NCBI RefSeq assembly: GCF_000455125.1
Contig: NZ_AUWR01000032.1
Coordinates: 1 to 64,000 of the forward strand
DNA from: Mycobacterium sp. UM_WGJ
GTDB taxonomy: Bacteria; Actinomycetota; Actinomycetes; Mycobacteriales; Mycobacteriaceae
Reading direction: 5' to 3'
DNA: 64,000 nt
Below the pieces are notes generated by a model that was not told where the DNA came from, ran no database searches, and saw only the letters and a program-made list of their open reading frames with translations. Made by a program: the position numbers and the translations under genes. How positions within the stretch are numbered: the stretch's first letter is position 1; every line of letters begins with the position of its first letter. Positions 6,534 to 34,036 of this stretch are shown here, one piece after another.

Positions 6534-7661
6534 ATGTACTCCGAACCCCTTTCGGCCGCGATCGCCGAGGCGGAGAAGCTGGTCGCCGCGGCTCCGCACA
6601 TCGAGACCGAGGCCGACTTGCTCGAGGGCCTGCAATACCTGGCCGGCGGCGTCGAGGCGTGTGTGCACGCCGCCTTCAACAGCGAGCGTGACCACCCGTT
6701 CTTACTGTCGGGCACCGGGCCGTTCACCAAGATGGGTCTGGACAACCCCGACACGCTGTACTTCGGCACCGTCGTGCGCCCCGGCAATGACTACGTGGTG
6801 CAGGGGACCCGGGGGACCACCACCGACCTCAGTTTCCAGCTGCTCGGAGGCGAATACACCGACGACAACGTCCCGGCCAGTGAGGCCGCCTTCGACGACC
6901 GCGAACTCGATGTTGCCGCCGACGGCACCTTCACCTGGCGCTTCCAGCCGAAGGCGCCGGCGCAACTGGTGATCCGCGAGGTCTACAACGACTGGGCCGC
7001 CCAGCGCGGCACCCTCTCGATCGCCAGGACCGACACCGAAGGCACCGCACCGCCGCCGTTGACCCGCCAGTTGATCGAGAAGCGTTATGCGGCAGCGGGA
7101 AAACAGCTGATCAACCGCATCAAGACCTGGCTCGCGTTCCCACAGTGGTTCTACCTGAACCTCCCGGTCAACACTATGGTGGCGCCGCGACTCACGCCGG
7201 GCGGTCTGGCCACGCAGTACTCGTCGGCCGGGCACTACGAGCTCGCGCCCGGCCAGGCGCTGGTCATCACCCTGCCGGTGTCGGACGCGCCGTACCTCGG
7301 CTTCCAGTTGGGCAGCCTGTGGTACATCTCGCTGGACTACATCAACCACCAGACCTCGCTGAACGGCACTCAGGCGCAAGCCGATCCGGACGGCAAGATC
7401 CGGATCGTGGTCTCCGACACCGATCCCGGGGTCACCAACTGGGTCGAGACCCTGGGCCATCGGCGCGGGTTCCTGCAGTTCCGCTGGCAGCGGGTGTCGC
7501 GGCAACTGACCGAGGCCGACGGTCCGACCGTCGAGCTCATCGACGTCGACGCCGTGCAGTCGGCACTGCCCTTCTATGACCACAACAAGATTTCGCAAGA
7601 GGACTGGCGAGCGCGAATCGCGCAGCGGCAGCAGCAAATCGCTAACAGAATGCTGGGGTGA
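6534..7661 (+). CDS. DUF1214-domain protein, Rv3531c orthologue
   Basis: The product is 375 residues, the same length as M. tuberculosis Rv3531c, and lies before the same two genes. DUF1214-like features are GPFTKMGLDNPDTLYFG near residue 63, a beta-rich middle, and VSDTDPGVTNWVETLGHRRGFLQFRWQR near residue 300. It has no signal peptide. The family is often found with lipid or steroid catabolism genes but has no settled activity. Its stop overlaps a possible GTG start of the SDR gene, so the three plus-strand genes 6534-9591 form one transcript. Confidence 0.8.
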   Translation: MYSEPLSAAIAEAEKLVAAAPHIETEADLLEGLQYLAGGVEACVHAAFNSERDHPFLLSGTGPFTKMGLDNPDTLYFGTVVRPGNDYVVQGTRGTTTDLSFQLLGGEYTDDNVPASEAAFDDRELDVAADGTFTWRFQPKAPAQLVIREVYNDWAAQRGTLSIARTDTEGTAPPPLTRQLIEKRYAAAGKQLINRIKTWLAFPQWFYLNLPVNTMVAPRLTPGGLATQYSSAGHYELAPGQALVITLPVSDAPYLGFQLGSLWYISLDYINHQTSLNGTQAQADPDGKIRIVVSDTDPGVTNWVETLGHRRGFLQFRWQRVSRQLTEADGPTVELIDVDAVQSALPFYDHNKISQEDWRARIAQRQQQIANRMLG

Positions 7662-26997: not shown

Positions 26998-27792
26998 CTA
27001 CCCCGCGCAGCGGCCACCCGGTAGCTCGGCGGCATGGGCGCTGAGCCACTGGGTGAGCTGGTTGAGTGCCGCAGTCCCGGATCCGAAACTGCCGTCCTTG
27101 GGTTCGGCGGCCAAGGCCACGGCCAGATCGCCCGCCGGTGCGTGCACGATGCCGAACTGCCGCACCAGGTACCCGCCACCGGCGCCAGGTCCCCAGCCGC
27201 CCTTGCTGGGGACGTTGAGCCCGGCCAGCCCCCAGCGCTGGTCGGGCACGGTGTTGCGCATCAAGCTGTAGACGGGCGCAGCGACGGCCATGCAGGGCAG
27301 GTGGGCGGCGAACACCGCTTGGCGGGCCAGCGGCCACTGGGTCTGACCGAAGGCGCTGAACTCGGGACGCAGCCGCCGGGATTCGACCGCGGTGCCGGTG
27401 TCCCCGCCGGCCCGCAGGACGGCCTGCACCTGCTGGGCGGCCTGAGGCGCCGGCCCCAGCGATGCCCACAACTGCTCGGCGGCGTCGTTGTCGGATGCTG
27501 TCACGGCCTTAGCCGCCAGCTCCTGGGCGTTCGGGCGGTTGGCGTGCAGCGCCGCGATCGCCAGCGGGACCTTGATGGTCGACCAGGCCACGCCGTTCTG
27601 CAGCGATCCGAGGGTGGCCACCTGGTTCTGGCCGACCGGGGCATAGGCGATGCCGACGTTGGCTCCGATGGTGTTGGCCAGCTGCGCGAAGCTGGCCTGG
27701 AGCGGTTCCGCGGAGGCGGGCGAGGCCAGGGCCAGGGGTAAGGCCAGGGCGGCGGCCAGGATTGCGACGAGCATGCGGCGGGCGGCAGGCAT
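26998..27792 (-). CDS. Secreted serine hydrolase, class A beta-lactamase-like
   Basis: The 264-residue protein begins with a signal peptide (residues 1 to about 28, ending SPASA). The mature part has all three motifs of the class A fold: SxxK as STIK in WSTIKVPLAIAAL, SDN in TASDNDAAEQLW, and KTG as KGG in VPSKGGWGPGAG. A true beta-lactamase would also need the omega-loop Glu, which I could not place with certainty. It could be a penicillin-interacting hydrolase of the cell wall. The ATG at 27792 is chosen because it gives a normal signal peptide. Confidence 0.78.
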   Translation of the reverse strand: MPAARRMLVAILAAALALPLALASPASAEPLQASFAQLANTIGANVGIAYAPVGQNQVATLGSLQNGVAWSTIKVPLAIAALHANRPNAQELAAKAVTASDNDAAEQLWASLGPAPQAAQQVQAVLRAGGDTGTAVESRRLRPEFSAFGQTQWPLARQAVFAAHLPCMAVAAPVYSLMRNTVPDQRWGLAGLNVPSKGGWGPGAGGGYLVRQFGIVHAPAGDLAVALAAEPKDGSFGSGTAALNQLTQWLSAHAAELPGGRCAG

Positions 27793-27990
27793 TGACTCAT
27801 ATTGCCCGCGGTGGGCGACGAAAGGGGATGACCATTGGCCGTGTCGAACCGGCCAATCCCCGGGATTGTTCGACCAGAGCGGTCCGTGGCAGCCGCTGAA
27901 TGCCGGGCTCAGCACGGGCGAGTGGGGCACCGGAGGTGTAACAATTCTCGTTAAACCGTACAATCGTCTGTTTTCGGCTATCTTTTCATC

Positions 27991-28413
27991 ATGAAAGCAG
28001 CGCTCGGTGCAGCAGCGGCCCTGATCTTCTCGGCTATCGGCATGGCGCCGACCGTCCTGGCGCAGCCGGATCTGCACTTCTTCGTATCCCCGAGCGGAAA
28101 CATCGCGTGCCTGGTAGGCCCCGACTGGGTCCGGTGCGACATCCAAGAACGTGATTGGTCGCCGCCGCCGCGGCCGTCGGATTGTTACAGTCAGACCGGG
28201 TACGGGCAGGGCATCCAAATCGAGGCTCACGGTAAGGCCGAGTTCGTCTGTGCCGGAGACACCACGTTCGGCGGGGACGCGCGAACCCTCAACTACGGCG
28301 AACGTGACAGTTCAACGACACATCTGTGCACCAGTGAGAAGTCCGGGATCAGGTGCGAGAACCGGGACGACCACGGGTTCGTGATTTCCCGCGAGTCTTA
28401 CGAACTGTTCTGA
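27991..28413 (+). CDS. Secreted DUF6636-type protein
   Basis: The 140-residue product has a signal peptide (MKAALGAAAALIFSAIGMAPTVLAQ) and a mature domain with six Cys residues: FFVSPSGNIACLVG, VRCDI, PSDCYSQTG, AEFVCAGDT, HLCTSEKSGIRCENRDDHGFVISRESYELF. This is the usual pattern of mycobacterial DUF6636 exported proteins, probably with three disulfides. Function unknown. The upstream gap contains a spaced repeat, TAAC (27939) and GTTA (27950), which might be a regulator site. Confidence 0.75.
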   Translation: MKAALGAAAALIFSAIGMAPTVLAQPDLHFFVSPSGNIACLVGPDWVRCDIQERDWSPPPRPSDCYSQTGYGQGIQIEAHGKAEFVCAGDTTFGGDARTLNYGERDSSTTHLCTSEKSGIRCENRDDHGFVISRESYELF

Positions 28414-28422
28414 CAGGCATTT

Positions 28423-29259
28423 TCAGCGCTGCGCCAGTGCCTTCATGTCGGGTGCCAGCACGTCGGTCAGCGATGACCATGGCACGGTGATGACCGGCGA
28501 GCCGTGTCCGAACTGATAGTCGGCAAAGTGGATCTGGATGCCCTCGGCGGTAGGAATCCAGTTCGCGAAGTTTTCCGCGATCGGGCGGTTGCCCGGTTCG
28601 TCGGACATCGGCTCGCCGCCGCCGTAGGTGGTCGGCCAGATCCGTTTGGTCTGCTCGGAGAGTCGATTGAGGCCGTCTTGTTCGGTGATGAACAGGTCGC
28701 TCAAAGTGATCGGTTTGGCATTCCGACTGTCGATGACGACAGTGCTCACATAGTTGGTCGGATGGGCCGCGTCTTTGGCGTAGTAGACGCCGGTGAGAAC
28801 CTGGGCGATCGCGATGGGGCGAAAGGTCAATGCCGACTGAATCTCAAGCCGCCAAGGCGAACTGGTGTCCGCGTCCGCACGCACTTGATCGATCTGATAG
28901 CGCGCCGATGCGTTGCCGGCTTTGTTGAACGACTCGGCCACCCGGGGATCGCCGCCCGATATCCGGCCGACTTCCGCGCGCCAGTGGCCCCGGCCGTCGG
29001 CGGTCGCTCCCTCGATTGGGGCGACCGTGACGGTGTAACTCTTCCCGTTGGAGATCTGCGAATCCGTGTGGGTCACCGGCGATGGGCTTGCGGAAGTCAG
29101 GGTTGTCGATGTGACAACGAGCTGATGTCCCACGGAGACAGACGACTCGGTGTTCCCGCAGGAAGCCGTCGGCATCGACAGTGCGGCCACGAAAGTCGCG
29201 GCCAAGAGTGTCCTGCGGGTCTGAGGTATGCGGTGTCCGGTGAGCTGGTGAAGGGGCAC
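28423..29259 (-). CDS. Exported protein with DUF3298/RsiV-like domain, possible lipoprotein
   Basis: The 278-residue protein has an N-terminal export signal followed by a single Cys in SMPTASCGN, a weak lipobox. The C-terminal half, GVYYAKDAAHPTNYVSTVVIDSRNAKPITLSDLF to WIPTAEGIQIHFADYQFGHGSPVITVPWSSL, matches the DUF3298 pattern found in RsiV-type envelope proteins. The start is GTG at 29259. Function unknown; it is convergent with the DUF6636 gene. Confidence 0.72.
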   Translation of the reverse strand: MPLHQLTGHRIPQTRRTLLAATFVAALSMPTASCGNTESSVSVGHQLVVTSTTLTSASPSPVTHTDSQISNGKSYTVTVAPIEGATADGRGHWRAEVGRISGGDPRVAESFNKAGNASARYQIDQVRADADTSSPWRLEIQSALTFRPIAIAQVLTGVYYAKDAAHPTNYVSTVVIDSRNAKPITLSDLFITEQDGLNRLSEQTKRIWPTTYGGGEPMSDEPGNRPIAENFANWIPTAEGIQIHFADYQFGHGSPVITVPWSSLTDVLAPDMKALAQR

Positions 29260-29410: not shown

Positions 29411-31258
29411 ATGTACATACGTCGCAGTTTGACCATGCTGCGCGCGGTCCGCGGGGCGGTGTTGATTTGCGTCCTGCTGGGGTTGTTCGTCACGGCGCTG
29501 CCTTTTGTGTCCAGTGCGGCCTTGGGGCCGCTGATGCAAGCCGTCGCCGCCGCCGGGATGAATGGGGACCTCTCCGATGTATGGGGGCAACAGGGTTCGT
29601 TGCTCAGCCGTGACGGCGGTTTGGCCTCCGGTCTTGTCGGATGGCTGACGAAGCCGCTGAATTTCATGGTGCTGCTGAGCATTTGGTCGGGCGCATTGGT
29701 GCTGGCGCAAGCGCTGGGCTTCGTCAACGCGTGGATCGGTGCGCATGTCGAGCGCAAGCTGCTGGCTGCGATCCTGCAGCGTGTTCACGACCACGTTCAA
29801 TCGCTGTCCCTGGACTTCTTCGTCGGTGCGCGCAGCGGTGTCCTGATTCAGCGTGTGCAACTGGAGGCGCCGTGTGTCCAGCGGCTGTTGACCGATTGCG
29901 TTGTCCCACCGCTTGTCGACGCAGTGGTCTTGGTGGTCGCGCTCGGATACCTTCTCGCGTTGTCCTGGCCGATGACGGTGGTGTCGCTGGTTCTGGCCCC
30001 GCTCGCGCTCATGGCCCTTCGTTACGCGGGCAGCAGGCTCCAGGTGGTGACGCAACGAGCGATGATGGCAAATCGCGAGATGAGTGGCGAACTCGCCGAG
30101 ACGGCCAGTGGTATCTCGGAGATTCAGGTGTTCAACGCCCAGCGTCGCCGCAGTGAGACGTTCGGCGAATCGGCGATGGCCGCGACGAAGAACATGGCCG
30201 CGATGCGGGTCTGGATGCAGGCATCGACCAACGGTGTCCAGGTCTTCATCGCGCTGAGCACGGTGCTGGTGCTGGTGAGCGGGATCGCGTGGGGCGACCG
30301 GTTCGGTCTGAGCTTCGCGGGCCTGGTGGTGTTCATCGCGTATGTGCCGACGATGTTTGCAGCTGTGCAGCGAATGGTATTGGCGTATACGACCTATCAG
30401 TCGATCCTGCCCCACGTCGCATCGACCTACGAACTGCTCGACACCGAGCCCACGGTGCGGGAACTCCCTAATGCTGCCGCGTTGCCCAGCATCAGGGGCG
30501 ACGTCGTATTCGAAGATGTTTCCTTCAGCTATTCGCCGCAACAGAAGGTTCTGAATGGGTTGTCCTTCTCGATCGCGGCAGGAGAGACGGTGGCGCTGGT
30601 CGGACCGATCGGATCAGGAAAATCGACCGTCTTCAATCTACTGCTGCGTTTCCTTGAACCGCAGAGCGGCCGGATTCTGCTGGACGGCAACGATATCCGT
30701 CAGGTGACATTGCACTCGCTGCGAGAACAGGTGTCCAAACTCGCGCAGTTCCCGTTCTATCTAAAGGACACGATTCGACAGAACGTGCGGTTGGGCAGGC
30801 GCGATGCCAGCGACAGTGAGGTCGAAGATGCCTGTCGATCGGCCCATATCCATGCGGTGATCGTCGATCCGGCCAAGGTTCGCGACGGCTATGACACCGT
30901 CATGGACCTCGAGGTGCCGTCGGGAGGGCAGAAGCGGCTGATCGCCTTCGCGCGGTGTCTGCTTCGCCGGCCGCAGGTCCTGCTCCTCGACGAGCCGACG
31001 GAGAACCTGGATGCCGATCAGCGATCCCGCGTAACCGCCGTGATCCGGGAATACGCGGATACCCGCACCTGTCTGGTGATCAGCCACGACATGGACTTCA
31101 TCGCGGCCGTGGCCGACCGGATCATCGTGTTGAACCACGGCAGAGCCGCCGAACAGGGCACTCACGCGGAGTTGATGAATCGTGGCGGCCTGTACACGCG
31201 GCTCTGCGCTGCCGACAACGCGGACTCGGCACTACTCGATCGCAGCGCTCCGGGCTGA
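29411..31258 (+). CDS. ABC exporter half-transporter, probable lasso peptide exporter (D protein)
   Basis: The 615-residue protein has an N-terminal six-helix membrane domain (first helix at AVLICVLLGLFVTALPFVS, last near GLVVFIAYVPTMFAAVQRM) and a C-terminal ATPase with Walker A GPIGSGKST, Walker B LLLDEPTENLD and the H-loop VISHDMDF. The signature motif reads VPSGGQKRL instead of LSGGQ, but the Ser-Gly-Gly-Gln core is kept. It ends 68 bases from the lasso precursor gene and faces it. Lasso clusters normally carry such an exporter for release and self-protection. AGGAG lies before the ATG at 29411. The gene looks less GC-rich at third positions than its sterol-gene neighbours. Confidence 0.85.
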   Translation: MYIRRSLTMLRAVRGAVLICVLLGLFVTALPFVSSAALGPLMQAVAAAGMNGDLSDVWGQQGSLLSRDGGLASGLVGWLTKPLNFMVLLSIWSGALVLAQALGFVNAWIGAHVERKLLAAILQRVHDHVQSLSLDFFVGARSGVLIQRVQLEAPCVQRLLTDCVVPPLVDAVVLVVALGYLLALSWPMTVVSLVLAPLALMALRYAGSRLQVVTQRAMMANREMSGELAETASGISEIQVFNAQRRRSETFGESAMAATKNMAAMRVWMQASTNGVQVFIALSTVLVLVSGIAWGDRFGLSFAGLVVFIAYVPTMFAAVQRMVLAYTTYQSILPHVASTYELLDTEPTVRELPNAAALPSIRGDVVFEDVSFSYSPQQKVLNGLSFSIAAGETVALVGPIGSGKSTVFNLLLRFLEPQSGRILLDGNDIRQVTLHSLREQVSKLAQFPFYLKDTIRQNVRLGRRDASDSEVEDACRSAHIHAVIVDPAKVRDGYDTVMDLEVPSGGQKRLIAFARCLLRRPQVLLLDEPTENLDADQRSRVTAVIREYADTRTCLVISHDMDFIAAVADRIIVLNHGRAAEQGTHAELMNRGGLYTRLCAADNADSALLDRSAPG

Positions 31259-31325: not shown

Positions 31326-31496
31326 TCAGCCGCGCGGTGGCAGCGGTGCCGCGGTGTCGGGGGTGTCGAGATGCCGCTGGTACCAGCCCATGTAGCCGTA
31401 GCCCGTGCTGCTGTCCGACAGGTAATTCCCGCTGCCCTGAGTGGTGGCGCGGACATCCCCTACGTGCACGACCTGCGGGGGTGAGTAGTTGCGCAT
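31326..31496 (-). CDS. Lasso peptide precursor (A peptide)
   Basis: The 56-residue peptide starts MRNYSPPQVVHVGDVRATTQ, read codon by codon. The leader has the actinobacterial pattern Y-x2-P (Y4, P7), hydrophobic V9, G13, V15 and Thr19 at position -2 before the predicted cut. The core would start at G21 as GSGNYLSD, with Asp28 at core position 8, so an eight-residue Gly1-Asp8 macrolactam ring is predicted. The tail is long (28 residues), rich in Tyr/Gly/Trp at first (GYGYMGWY) and Pro/Asp/Thr-rich at the end (ending PLPPRG). GGAGG lies 7 bases before the ATG. It is downstream of the cyclase and protease genes on the same strand. The core matches no lasso peptide I know. Confidence 0.85.
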   Translation of the reverse strand: MRNYSPPQVVHVGDVRATTQGSGNYLSDSSTGYGYMGWYQRHLDTPDTAAPLPPRG

Positions 31497-31503
31497 CCGG
31501 GAA

Positions 31504-31508
31504 CCTCC
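31504..31508 (-). promoter_or_regulatory. Ribosome binding site of the lasso precursor gene
   Basis: On the minus strand the sequence reads GGAGG, 7 bases upstream of the ATG at 31496. This strong site fixes the start of a gene that would otherwise be overlooked because of its size. Confidence 0.8.
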
Positions 31509-31583
31509 AAAGAGTCGTCACACGCCAGCTGGCCTCCGAAAGTGTACTTGATGCCAGCGAGCGAGACATGGCGTTTCGGCGAA

Positions 31584-33338
31584 TCAGGGCGCAGCGCCGG
31601 TCAGCAGGGCAGGAGCGCCCACGTGGTGTAGGTGGCGCAGCCAGACCTCGATCTGGATTGCCGTGTAGAACTGCGTGACGGCGCCCACACGCCCGGGTGC
31701 GGGCAGCGCCGCGGTCCAGGCGTCGGCATCGGCATAGCCGCGCTCCACGATCTGGGGCCGTTCGGCCAGGAATTCCCGCCATTGGGGATGGCGTTCGAAG
31801 CCGTGCAGCATCGCCTCGTCCGCGATCGGCTTCGACCGCCGCCGAAGTACCTGTTCGCTGACCAGCCCCGCGAAGGCGTACCGCTGCACCGCTCGATCGA
31901 TACGGGGATCCACCGCGATGTTCCACGGGGTGGCCAGTGCCAAGTCGACCAAGGGTGGCGCCAGCAGCGGATGCCGCAATTCGAATGTGGCCGAAGGGAA
32001 CTGGTGGCGGCTTCGGGCGAACTCCAGGCCGCGTAGCACGTTCTCCACGACGGCCTGACCGTGGACCGTCTGCGCTCGGATCGGCGTGGTGAACTCGGCG
32101 CGGCGTTGCAGCCCGTGACCCTCGACGTACTCTCGGCGCAGCCACGGTGCCGCTTCGGTAATGCGCGCAGACGGTTGCAGCGTCAGGGTCCGACCGCGTC
32201 GCCACCGGCGCCGTCCTTCGAGGGCCGCGCGACGCAGCCAGAACGTGGCGGGTCGGCCCAGCCCGGACTCGGCACTCCACCGCAGCGCCTCGCGCCACAG
32301 GTGTACCGGCTGTCCGTTACGCAGTAAGTCGGCCAGGTACCAGGGCAGCAGGCCCGCGAAGAACACCGCGTCGCCGCCCTCGCCGGTGAGCAGAGTCGAC
32401 ACGCCCAACTCCCGCGCGACGGCCTCCTCGGCCGCGCTCGGGGCCCAGTTGATGATCCGGCGCGTGGGTGCAGGTAGGAAGATGCCCAATTCCGGCCCGG
32501 CGGTGAAGGTGCCGTGTTCGGTGGCGTCGATGGGATGCCACGGTGCCGGACTCGTTTCCAGCGCCGCCCTCATCCACGACGACTCGTCGCTGCCGGGGAA
32601 TCCGGGATGAGTGAAGCTGAGCGCGGCCACCGGCGCCAGACCGGTGGCCGCGGCTAAGACCGTCGAGGTGTCCAGGCCGCCCGACAACTCGACCGCTTGG
32701 GTGCCGTCGGGCGACAATGCTCCTGCGACGGCACGTTTAACGGTGTCGCGCAACAGTTCCTGATGGCCGTCGAATGTCTCGTGGACAGGATCGGTCGACG
32801 GTCGCCATCCGCCGCGCAGCCGGGGGCGGCCGGTGTGACAGGTAGCGAACTGGCCCACCTGCAGCCGTCGAATGCCGCGGTACGGGGTGCGCGGGCCCAG
32901 ATGCATTCCGGTGCTGAACATGTCGGCCAGATACTCTTCGTCCAACTCTCGCCAGGCCCCGGTTTCGCGGACCAGTGCTGCCAAGTCGGTGGACACCACG
33001 GTTGCGTTCGGCCTAACGGCGTAGTAGAGGGGCCGCAGGCCCATGCGATCGCCGACCAGCACGGCATCGGGGCCGTTCACGATGACAACCGCGTATTCGC
33101 CGATGATGCGCTCGGCGGTGTTGGCCTGCCAGCGCCGGAGTCCGGCTTCCACGATCCGGCCGAAGGACGCCGAGGGGGCAAGATTCAACTCGGCGCGCAA
33201 CCGCGCCGGGTTCGCCAGGTAGCCGTGAAACCAGACCGCGGTTTCGCCGACCGGCTCGTGCTGCGGCCAGCCCTGTATCGGTGCCCCCACCGTGGTGGGC
33301 AGCGACACCAGGAATCCCTGCAGGGCTGGTTGCGTCAT
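31584..33338 (-). CDS. Lasso peptide cyclase (asparagine-synthetase-like C protein)
   Basis: The 584-residue protein is of the asparagine synthetase B type. The N-terminal glutaminase-like domain (IIGEYAVVIVNG, VGDRMGLRPLYYAV) lacks the catalytic Cys2, since the protein starts MTQPALQ. The C-terminal synthetase domain has the ATP pyrophosphatase loop VELSGGLDTSTVLAAATG near residue 215 and LLTGEGGDAVFF near residue 315. This combination is typical of lasso cyclases, which adenylate the ring Asp/Glu and join it to the N-terminal amine of the core. It overlaps the protease gene by 4 bases (ATGA). Confidence 0.9.
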   Translation of the reverse strand: MTQPALQGFLVSLPTTVGAPIQGWPQHEPVGETAVWFHGYLANPARLRAELNLAPSASFGRIVEAGLRRWQANTAERIIGEYAVVIVNGPDAVLVGDRMGLRPLYYAVRPNATVVSTDLAALVRETGAWRELDEEYLADMFSTGMHLGPRTPYRGIRRLQVGQFATCHTGRPRLRGGWRPSTDPVHETFDGHQELLRDTVKRAVAGALSPDGTQAVELSGGLDTSTVLAAATGLAPVAALSFTHPGFPGSDESSWMRAALETSPAPWHPIDATEHGTFTAGPELGIFLPAPTRRIINWAPSAAEEAVARELGVSTLLTGEGGDAVFFAGLLPWYLADLLRNGQPVHLWREALRWSAESGLGRPATFWLRRAALEGRRRWRRGRTLTLQPSARITEAAPWLRREYVEGHGLQRRAEFTTPIRAQTVHGQAVVENVLRGLEFARSRHQFPSATFELRHPLLAPPLVDLALATPWNIAVDPRIDRAVQRYAFAGLVSEQVLRRRSKPIADEAMLHGFERHPQWREFLAERPQIVERGYADADAWTAALPAPGRVGAVTQFYTAIQIEVWLRHLHHVGAPALLTGAAP

Positions 33339-34036
33339 GCCCGCTGGATAACGGTGAAGCGGTGCAGGACGGAGGCACTCTCCTTGAGCGCTACGCCGTC
33401 CAACTCCACCCAGGCATGGGCTTCGAAGGGGTACAGCGCCACGCCGATCACATGCTGGGCCGGCCAGCCGGCCGCGCGAAGAAAGCTGGTCAGGGCGAGC
33501 GAGCGCGGTAGACAGTCCAGCGGCGCCTGGCGGGCGGGATAGAGGCCCTCGGCGGTGAAAAAGCGCGCTGTTGCCAGCTGCACGTCAGTCCGCGGCTCGG
33601 TGGGGTCGGCGACGGGTTGGGTGCGCTTGTGGTAGGCGGAAGCGAAACCCTTTCGCAGGTCGCGGTCCGCGGCGGCTCGTTCGGTCAAGGCGCGCATGAT
33701 CGTTGGCCTGCGTCGCCGTGCCCGGACGCCGGCATGCGGCGTGGCGGGCTGCGGCGCGCGGACCAGTCGGCCGGCGGCCAACTGTGATGCGGCGAAGTCG
33801 GCGGTGTCGGCCGCCACGGTGGCCGCAGGCACTCCATAGTTGTCGGCGAGGGCGGCGAAGTCGCGCTGTTTCGGTGGCCGGGTGAGTTGGGCCCACATGG
33901 CGGTGCCGATCTCATCCACCACGTCGTAGACACCGGTGGAGAGGTCCAGCAGTACCAATCGGTCGGCTACCTGCGCGCAGCGCAGGGTCGGAGCGGGGGC
34001 CAGTTGTGGCGGTGCGGAGGGTCCAGGATTCGGCAC
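33335..34036 (-). CDS. Lasso leader peptidase with fused RRE domain (B1-B2 fusion)
   Basis: The protein contains an N-terminal PqqD-like RiPP recognition element (LRCAQVADRLVLLDLSTGVYDVVDEIGTAMWAQL), which binds the leader. A transglutaminase-like cysteine protease domain follows, with the catalytic Cys in APLDCLPRSLALTSFLRAAGW and His/Asp in FEAHAWVELDG. In most actinobacterial clusters these are two genes, B1 and B2; here they are one. The start is uncertain: GTG at 34036 gives 233 residues and a normal RRE, while the ATG at 34270 would add a low-complexity basic stretch. It is the first gene of the B-C-A unit. Confidence 0.85.
   Translation of the reverse strand: MPNPGPSAPPQLAPAPTLRCAQVADRLVLLDLSTGVYDVVDEIGTAMWAQLTRPPKQRDFAALADNYGVPAATVAADTADFAASQLAAGRLVRAPQPATPHAGVRARRRRPTIMRALTERAAADRDLRKGFASAYHKRTQPVADPTEPRTDVQLATARFFTAEGLYPARQAPLDCLPRSLALTSFLRAAGWPAQHVIGVALYPFEAHAWVELDGVALKESASVLHRFTVIQRA

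Follow-up and report, generated by a model that had tools for sequence, protein, structure and literature searches.

The window, the whole 64,000-nucleotide stretch of Mycobacterium sp. UM_WGJ DNA analyzed here, carries the genes of a putative lasso peptide cluster. The gene order is B-C-A, with B and C directly upstream of A on the same (minus) strand, and an exporter gene, D, is convergent with A. Gene A (31326..31496, minus strand) encodes 56 residues, and its sequence and same-genus precursor matches make it almost certainly a lasso peptide precursor. The translation of this ORF (31496-31326) is MRNYSPPQVVHVGDVRATTQ-GSGNYLSDSSTGYGYMGWYQRHLDTPDTAAPLPPRG. A ribosome-binding site, GGAGG, lies at 31504..31508 on the minus strand, 7 bases 5' of the ATG. 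Motif alignment places a possible, weak -10 promoter element of A, TACACT, at 31541..31546 (minus strand), and the pattern GTA[CT]A[CT]TTT occurs in this region in six of eight aligned sequences; a generic scan for sigma-70 promoters and terminators gave no match.

The leader of A comprises residues 1-20 (31437..31496, minus strand) and displays Y4, P7, G13, and T19. T19 precedes Q20-G21, which places the Thr at position -2 relative to the core start. The core opens with GSGNYLSD and has the two features of a lasso core, a Gly or small residue in first place and an Asp or Glu at positions 7-9. The ring predicted from these residues (31413..31436, minus strand) would very probably be closed between Gly1 and Asp8. 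An earlier sequence-only reading had picked out the 56-residue minus-strand ORF, the GGAGG 7 bases before its ATG, the four leader residues, and the core start with Asp at position 8, and all of these are correct as it gave them; translation confirms its count of 36 residues from core start to stop. Its central proposal, that A encodes a lasso precursor whose ring is predicted to join Gly1 and Asp8, has good support from the sequence. With the NCBIfam lasso_leader_L3 model (NF033521), A reaches 22.7 bits, the curated cut-off being 19. The same cut-off is passed by five of five further orthologues of the window type (type I) that were scored and by none of three precursors of a second type (type II, described below). 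No Pfam family matches A, and a comparison of the A core with solved structures returned 40 sequences, mostly antibody light chains, at a best E-value of 0.14.

C (31584..33338, minus strand) is an asparagine-synthase-like lasso cyclase of 584 residues with the ATP motif SGGLD and no N-terminal Cys, and 87 nt separate it from the start of A. It scores 89.4 bits with PF00733 (cut-off 21), as expected of an asparagine-synthase-like cyclase, and its SGGLD and LTGEGGD motifs are invariant in nine sequences. C falls far below both NCBIfam lasso cyclase cut-offs, with 92.5 bits versus 300 (NF033561) and 74.8 versus 525. In PHROGs, the sole match is that of C to a family whose function is unassigned. 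B (33335..34036, the end being approximate; minus strand) overlaps C by 4 bases and encodes about 233 residues from a presumed GTG start. It fuses a PqqD-like leader-binding domain to a transglutaminase-like protease. The leader-binding (B1) half is identified by PF05402 (25.2 bits, cut-off 23.4), and the protease (B2) half by the lasso B2 model NF033537 (60.6 bits, cut-off 33), with PF13471 also above its cut-off. C175 and H207 of B, which we take to be the catalytic residues, are invariant in nine proteins, as expected of a transglutaminase-like B2, and two motifs are conserved, EAHAWVE and DCLPRS (one position of the latter varies in the nine, and L/M comes next). A profile of the nine B proteins matches the solved structures of TbiB1 (5v1u, E 5e-8) and TfuB1 (6jx3, E 0.004), presumably both lasso leader-binding proteins.

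Beyond the cluster on the B side lie fadD17-like and acyl-CoA dehydrogenase genes, a flank that looks like ordinary chromosome. The window C is 100% identical to the cyclase of Mycolicibacter arupensis DSM 44942, and the fadD17 of one genome, G078, is 97.4% identical to that of the window, whose genome is accordingly read as a close relative classed as a separate species. In M. engbaekii (L035:3171-5297), about 2.1 kb separate fadD17 from B, versus about 0.2 kb in M. algericus, and an insertion may sit there. A mobile or viral origin of the cluster found no support in viral contigs or plasmid records. Of 20 stretches in viral contigs that fitted a pattern, none could be confirmed; plasmids gave no precursor match, and C matches 159 plasmid records, all at less than 60% identity.

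D (29411..31258, plus strand; start placed at Met17 of the listed ORF) is an ABC exporter and, by its sequence, the probable lasso exporter. At E <= 1e-80, D adjoins the cluster in eight of the 11 sampled genomes that bear a lasso B2 domain. The three in which it is missing have the clusters outside the Mycolicibacter group, and the type II genomes are without D, both at this threshold. Outside the B2-bearing genomes, D occurs in 3 of 61 others, the 61 having been chosen from earlier match lists, and these three yielded no A gene. D is best described as a probable, not an obligatory, partner of the cluster. D-like ABC exporters with 60-66% identity lie in G020, G021, and G275, and none of these genomes gave a lasso precursor. 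Farther out, an ORF at 28423-29259 (minus strand) has a weak DUF3298 match, below cut-off, and adjoins D in several Mycolicibacter. The ORF listed at 26998-28230 (minus strand), for which 'bla' is an unproven label, matches no Pfam family at E <= 1e-5.

A lasso B2 domain is present in 11 genomes among the 396 sampled from the GTDB genus. A precursor profile locates an A gene beside B and C in all 11, and the gene is intact in ten. The sequence-only reading had held that loss of the ORF from homologues that keep B and C would count against a precursor, and no such loss was seen among these genomes. Eight B2-bearing genomes carry an intact type I A, and in a ninth, G229, a type I A is out of frame. 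The remaining two, G123 and G304, carry a type II A with a different core. Gly1 and Asp8 are present in the intact type I precursors; the three type II precursors, by reading, have Asp8 or Asp9. The order B-C-A is found in the window and the ten other clusters mapped. A separate precursor search of 297 same-genus genomes gave 33 matches at E <= 0.1, eight at E < 1e-15 and 25 weak; one of the weak matches, that of G123, proved real, and the other 24 stand as weak matches. G123 holds two tandem type II A genes (L039:7210-7374 and 7406-7567, plus strand) behind one B and one C. The two tandem precursors differ in their cores and share the same tail.

Wider sampling recovers strong matches in the same genus only. 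The cyclase was found at E <= 1e-40 in 4 of 397 sampled genomes of the order (three candidates per genome scored among the matches shown), and three of the 246 genomes sampled from the class gave the fused B at E <= 1e-15 (11 candidates per genome scored), all from the same genus. The precursor profile matches 21 of the 397 genomes of the order at E <= 0.05. Four of these, again of the same genus, have E < 1e-20; E-values of the others range from 0.0019 to 0.05. Samples drawn around G229 and G123 contained no near relatives and brought no further cases.

Comparison of type I orthologues divides the part of A behind the leader into three pieces. The set comprised seven genes, leaving out that of G078, whose protein is identical to the window's, and the broken gene of G229. 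Residues 21-39, GSGNYLSDSSTGYGYMGWY (31380..31436, minus strand), form an invariant core, whose 19 codons (Gly21 to Tyr39) show no nonsynonymous difference at a pS of 0.446. Residues 40-43 (xRxx; 31368..31379, minus strand) form a variable hinge with a pN/pS of 0.65 over its four codons. The conserved C-terminal tail, residues 44-56 (31329..31367, minus strand), consists of DTPDTAAPLPPR and a final G and has a pN/pS of 0.26 over its first twelve codons (residues 44-55); the leader value is 0.20. The values are Nei-Gojobori proportions calculated on seven short, related sequences, so that only their pattern is trustworthy. The enzymes are less constant, B being 62-88% and C 72-84% identical to the window proteins in the aligned intact type I rows, a range taken from five of the six other intact type I clusters (L037 was left out). 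The sequence-only reading had described a single 36-residue core with a very long tail. Given this pattern, that reading is not the preferred one, and the 36 residues are, from their sequence, better read as a core of 19, a hinge of 4, and a conserved tail.

The invariant core also bears on whether A is a gene at all. A chance or decayed frame beside an unrelated cyclase would find its one parallel in G229 (L040:6900-7070, minus strand), 1 of the 11 genomes, where the leader and core of A stand in different frames as assembled. This frame break may reflect either genuine loss of the gene or a mistake in sequencing. Most of the core is kept there, the stretch NYLSDSSTGYGYMGWY of A is unchanged, and the cyclase is 61% identical to the window C; the tail reads AALPPR against APLPP in the others, so one otherwise invariant Pro is changed. 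Against a chance or decayed frame stand the intact A of the other ten genomes and the 19 core codons that carry no amino-acid change despite synonymous change. A is not a chance ORF because its NF033521 score exceeds the curated cut-off, and same-genus conservation and the invariant core codons rule out a chance ORF as well. A frame of this kind is therefore exceedingly improbable.

The tail is shared between the two precursor types. In type I it reads DTP[DE]T[AV]APLPP[RK], with one more residue after it in some, and the three type II precursors, from two other mycobacteria, end in DSVSTVAPLPAR, DSVSCTAPLPQR, and DTVSNVAPLPER. Nine aligned precursors agree without exception at five tail columns: D44, A50, P51, L52, and P53. 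In shuffle comparisons of types I and II over 12 pairs (three type II precursors, each with four from the set of seven type I), the last 13 residues gave p values of 0.0002-0.005, and the part before them 0.004-0.025. By these values, the tail is better kept than the rest, and the cores retain some similarity. Both cores have Gly1, the ring Asp, and a later Gly in common, and the difference between them, as judged from sequence, is relative only. B is 44% and C 43% identical between the types, and the tail could have been retained in both through common descent.

Precursors that end with the core occur elsewhere in the order. Eight loci were read from weak order-wide profile matches, and the lasso-like ones among them, L068, L070, and L071, come from other families. 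Their precursors end after 16, 17, and 19 core residues, respectively, and are without such a tail. By tblastn, an asparagine-synthase-like ORF is found near L068 and L071; near L070, tblastn gave no match, and SGGLDST is present in an ORF. The L070 core (minus strand), GSAYLLYDADTGNGYTS, resembles the start of the window core and likewise is without the tail. The tail of A appears to be an appended segment that is probably trimmed after threading.

The domain families suggest how maturation may proceed. The PqqD-like half of B would bind the leader, and the transglutaminase-like half would cut after residue 20, with the Thr at -2. C would then activate Asp28 with ATP and join it to the amine of Gly21. 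The resulting 8-residue ring would be threaded by the 11-residue SSTGYGYMGWY, which ends in Trp-Tyr and whose aromatic side chains may act as plugs, and D would export the product. The last 17 residues, that is, the 4-residue hinge and the appended tail, would lie outside the threaded core. Removal of the tail at the hinge, either while the peptide matures or afterwards, would leave a lasso some 19-23 residues long. Computed neutral monoisotopic masses of the window core minus water are 2045.810 for 19 residues, 2329.970 for 21, 2580.113 for 23, and 3868.754 for all 36. A cut at the hinge explains most simply why an invariant core is followed by a loose hinge and by a tail found across cores. 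We consider it reasonably likely that the locus is a chromosomal mycobacterial lasso cluster, B-C-A with a convergent D, whose tail is most likely cut at the hinge. That the tail is absent from the final lasso is, on the same comparison of sequences, somewhat favored. The sequence-only reading had offered trimming as one option, and this option fits better, given the invariant core, the loose hinge, and the tail behind different cores. The neighboring ORFs scanned include no evident trimming protease. The available part of PMC13352647 describes truncated lasso tails that arise from cleavage by an endogenous carboxypeptidase.

A second possibility is that all 35-36 residues constitute the mature lasso, with the long Pro-rich tail serving in binding or uptake outside the ring. 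Purifying selection on the tail (pN/pS 0.26) and its retention across types I and II are compatible with this, and long tails do occur. Pandonodin, named in the review PMC13352647 as the longest-tailed lasso, has an 18-residue tail behind its ring and loop and 33 residues in all. It is a proteobacterial, class IV lasso with a disulfide in the tail, whereas the window core, at 35-36 residues if untrimmed, has no Cys. If the tail were kept, a 36-residue lasso would therefore exceed pandonodin's 33 (PMC13352647, in part). This length, the variable hinge between tail and invariant core, and the presence of the same tail behind different cores make a full-length lasso rather unlikely.

Trimming at the hinge has a sub-case in which the tail is a working follower, bound by B or C for cutting or threading and then removed. 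This role is favored by the observation that the tail travels with the B and C lineage and not with D, the type II genomes being without D at E <= 1e-80. Triculamin-like lassos may offer a precedent, as leaderless or follower-bearing precursors. Among other RiPPs, bottromycin has a follower peptide (PMC10885120). Weighing against a follower, common descent alone could keep the tail, and no lasso system with both leader and follower was found among the literature matches listed; we regard this role as doubtful. The same caution applies to its extension, put forward only tentatively, to a separate mycobacterial lasso lineage with a two-ended precursor, in which a leader at the N-terminus is matched by a conserved C-terminal follower, D[ST]xxxxAPLPx[RK], that B or C would read in the course of threading and that would then be removed.

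The lasso class itself is known, and the cluster shares some features with several described systems. Albusnodin clusters carry an N-acetyltransferase, and none was found among ten neighboring ORFs scanned. NF033561, the cyclase model of the albusnodin family, is the best-scoring lasso cyclase model for C, and there is a weak leader resemblance; membership in that family was rejected, as NF033525 scores the precursor at 16.8 of 30 and NF033561 the cyclase at 92.5 of 300. According to PMC5067487 (2016), actinobacterial clusters such as that of lariatin have a split B and the layout A C B1 B2 D, and B is intact in the proteobacterial systems characterized by then. The window cluster shares its gene families, the leader Thr at -2, and a predicted Gly1-Asp ring with lariatin/sviceucin/streptomonomicin-type clusters, as far as the sources at hand describe them. 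Unlike these, it has a fused B, the order B-C-A, and an appended conserved precursor tail, and D is convergent or absent in the mycobacterial clusters. The split B1/B2 and leading A of the actinobacterial A-C-B1-B2-D clade are found neither in the window nor in the ten relatives mapped. A fused B and an ABC exporter recall microcin J25-type proteobacterial clusters, from which the window differs in gene order and phylum (again on partial sources). The fused B and B-C-A order fit neither layout described in PMC5067487. No report of a lasso peptide made by mycobacteria was found among the literature matches listed, including PMC13192320 (in part); the genome-mining survey of Tietz 2017 may list the cluster.

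The 19-residue core stays the same across species that diverge by as much as 28% in the cyclase and 38% in B, which suggests that its target or signal is fixed. PMC13352647 describes several lasso peptides of other bacteria that are active against mycobacteria. The shared tail behind different cores raises a testable question, namely, whether lasso enzymes use C-terminal precursor information. If a two-ended precursor were true, new cores would be exchangeable between two fixed ends, and the system would be a follower-dependent lasso system.
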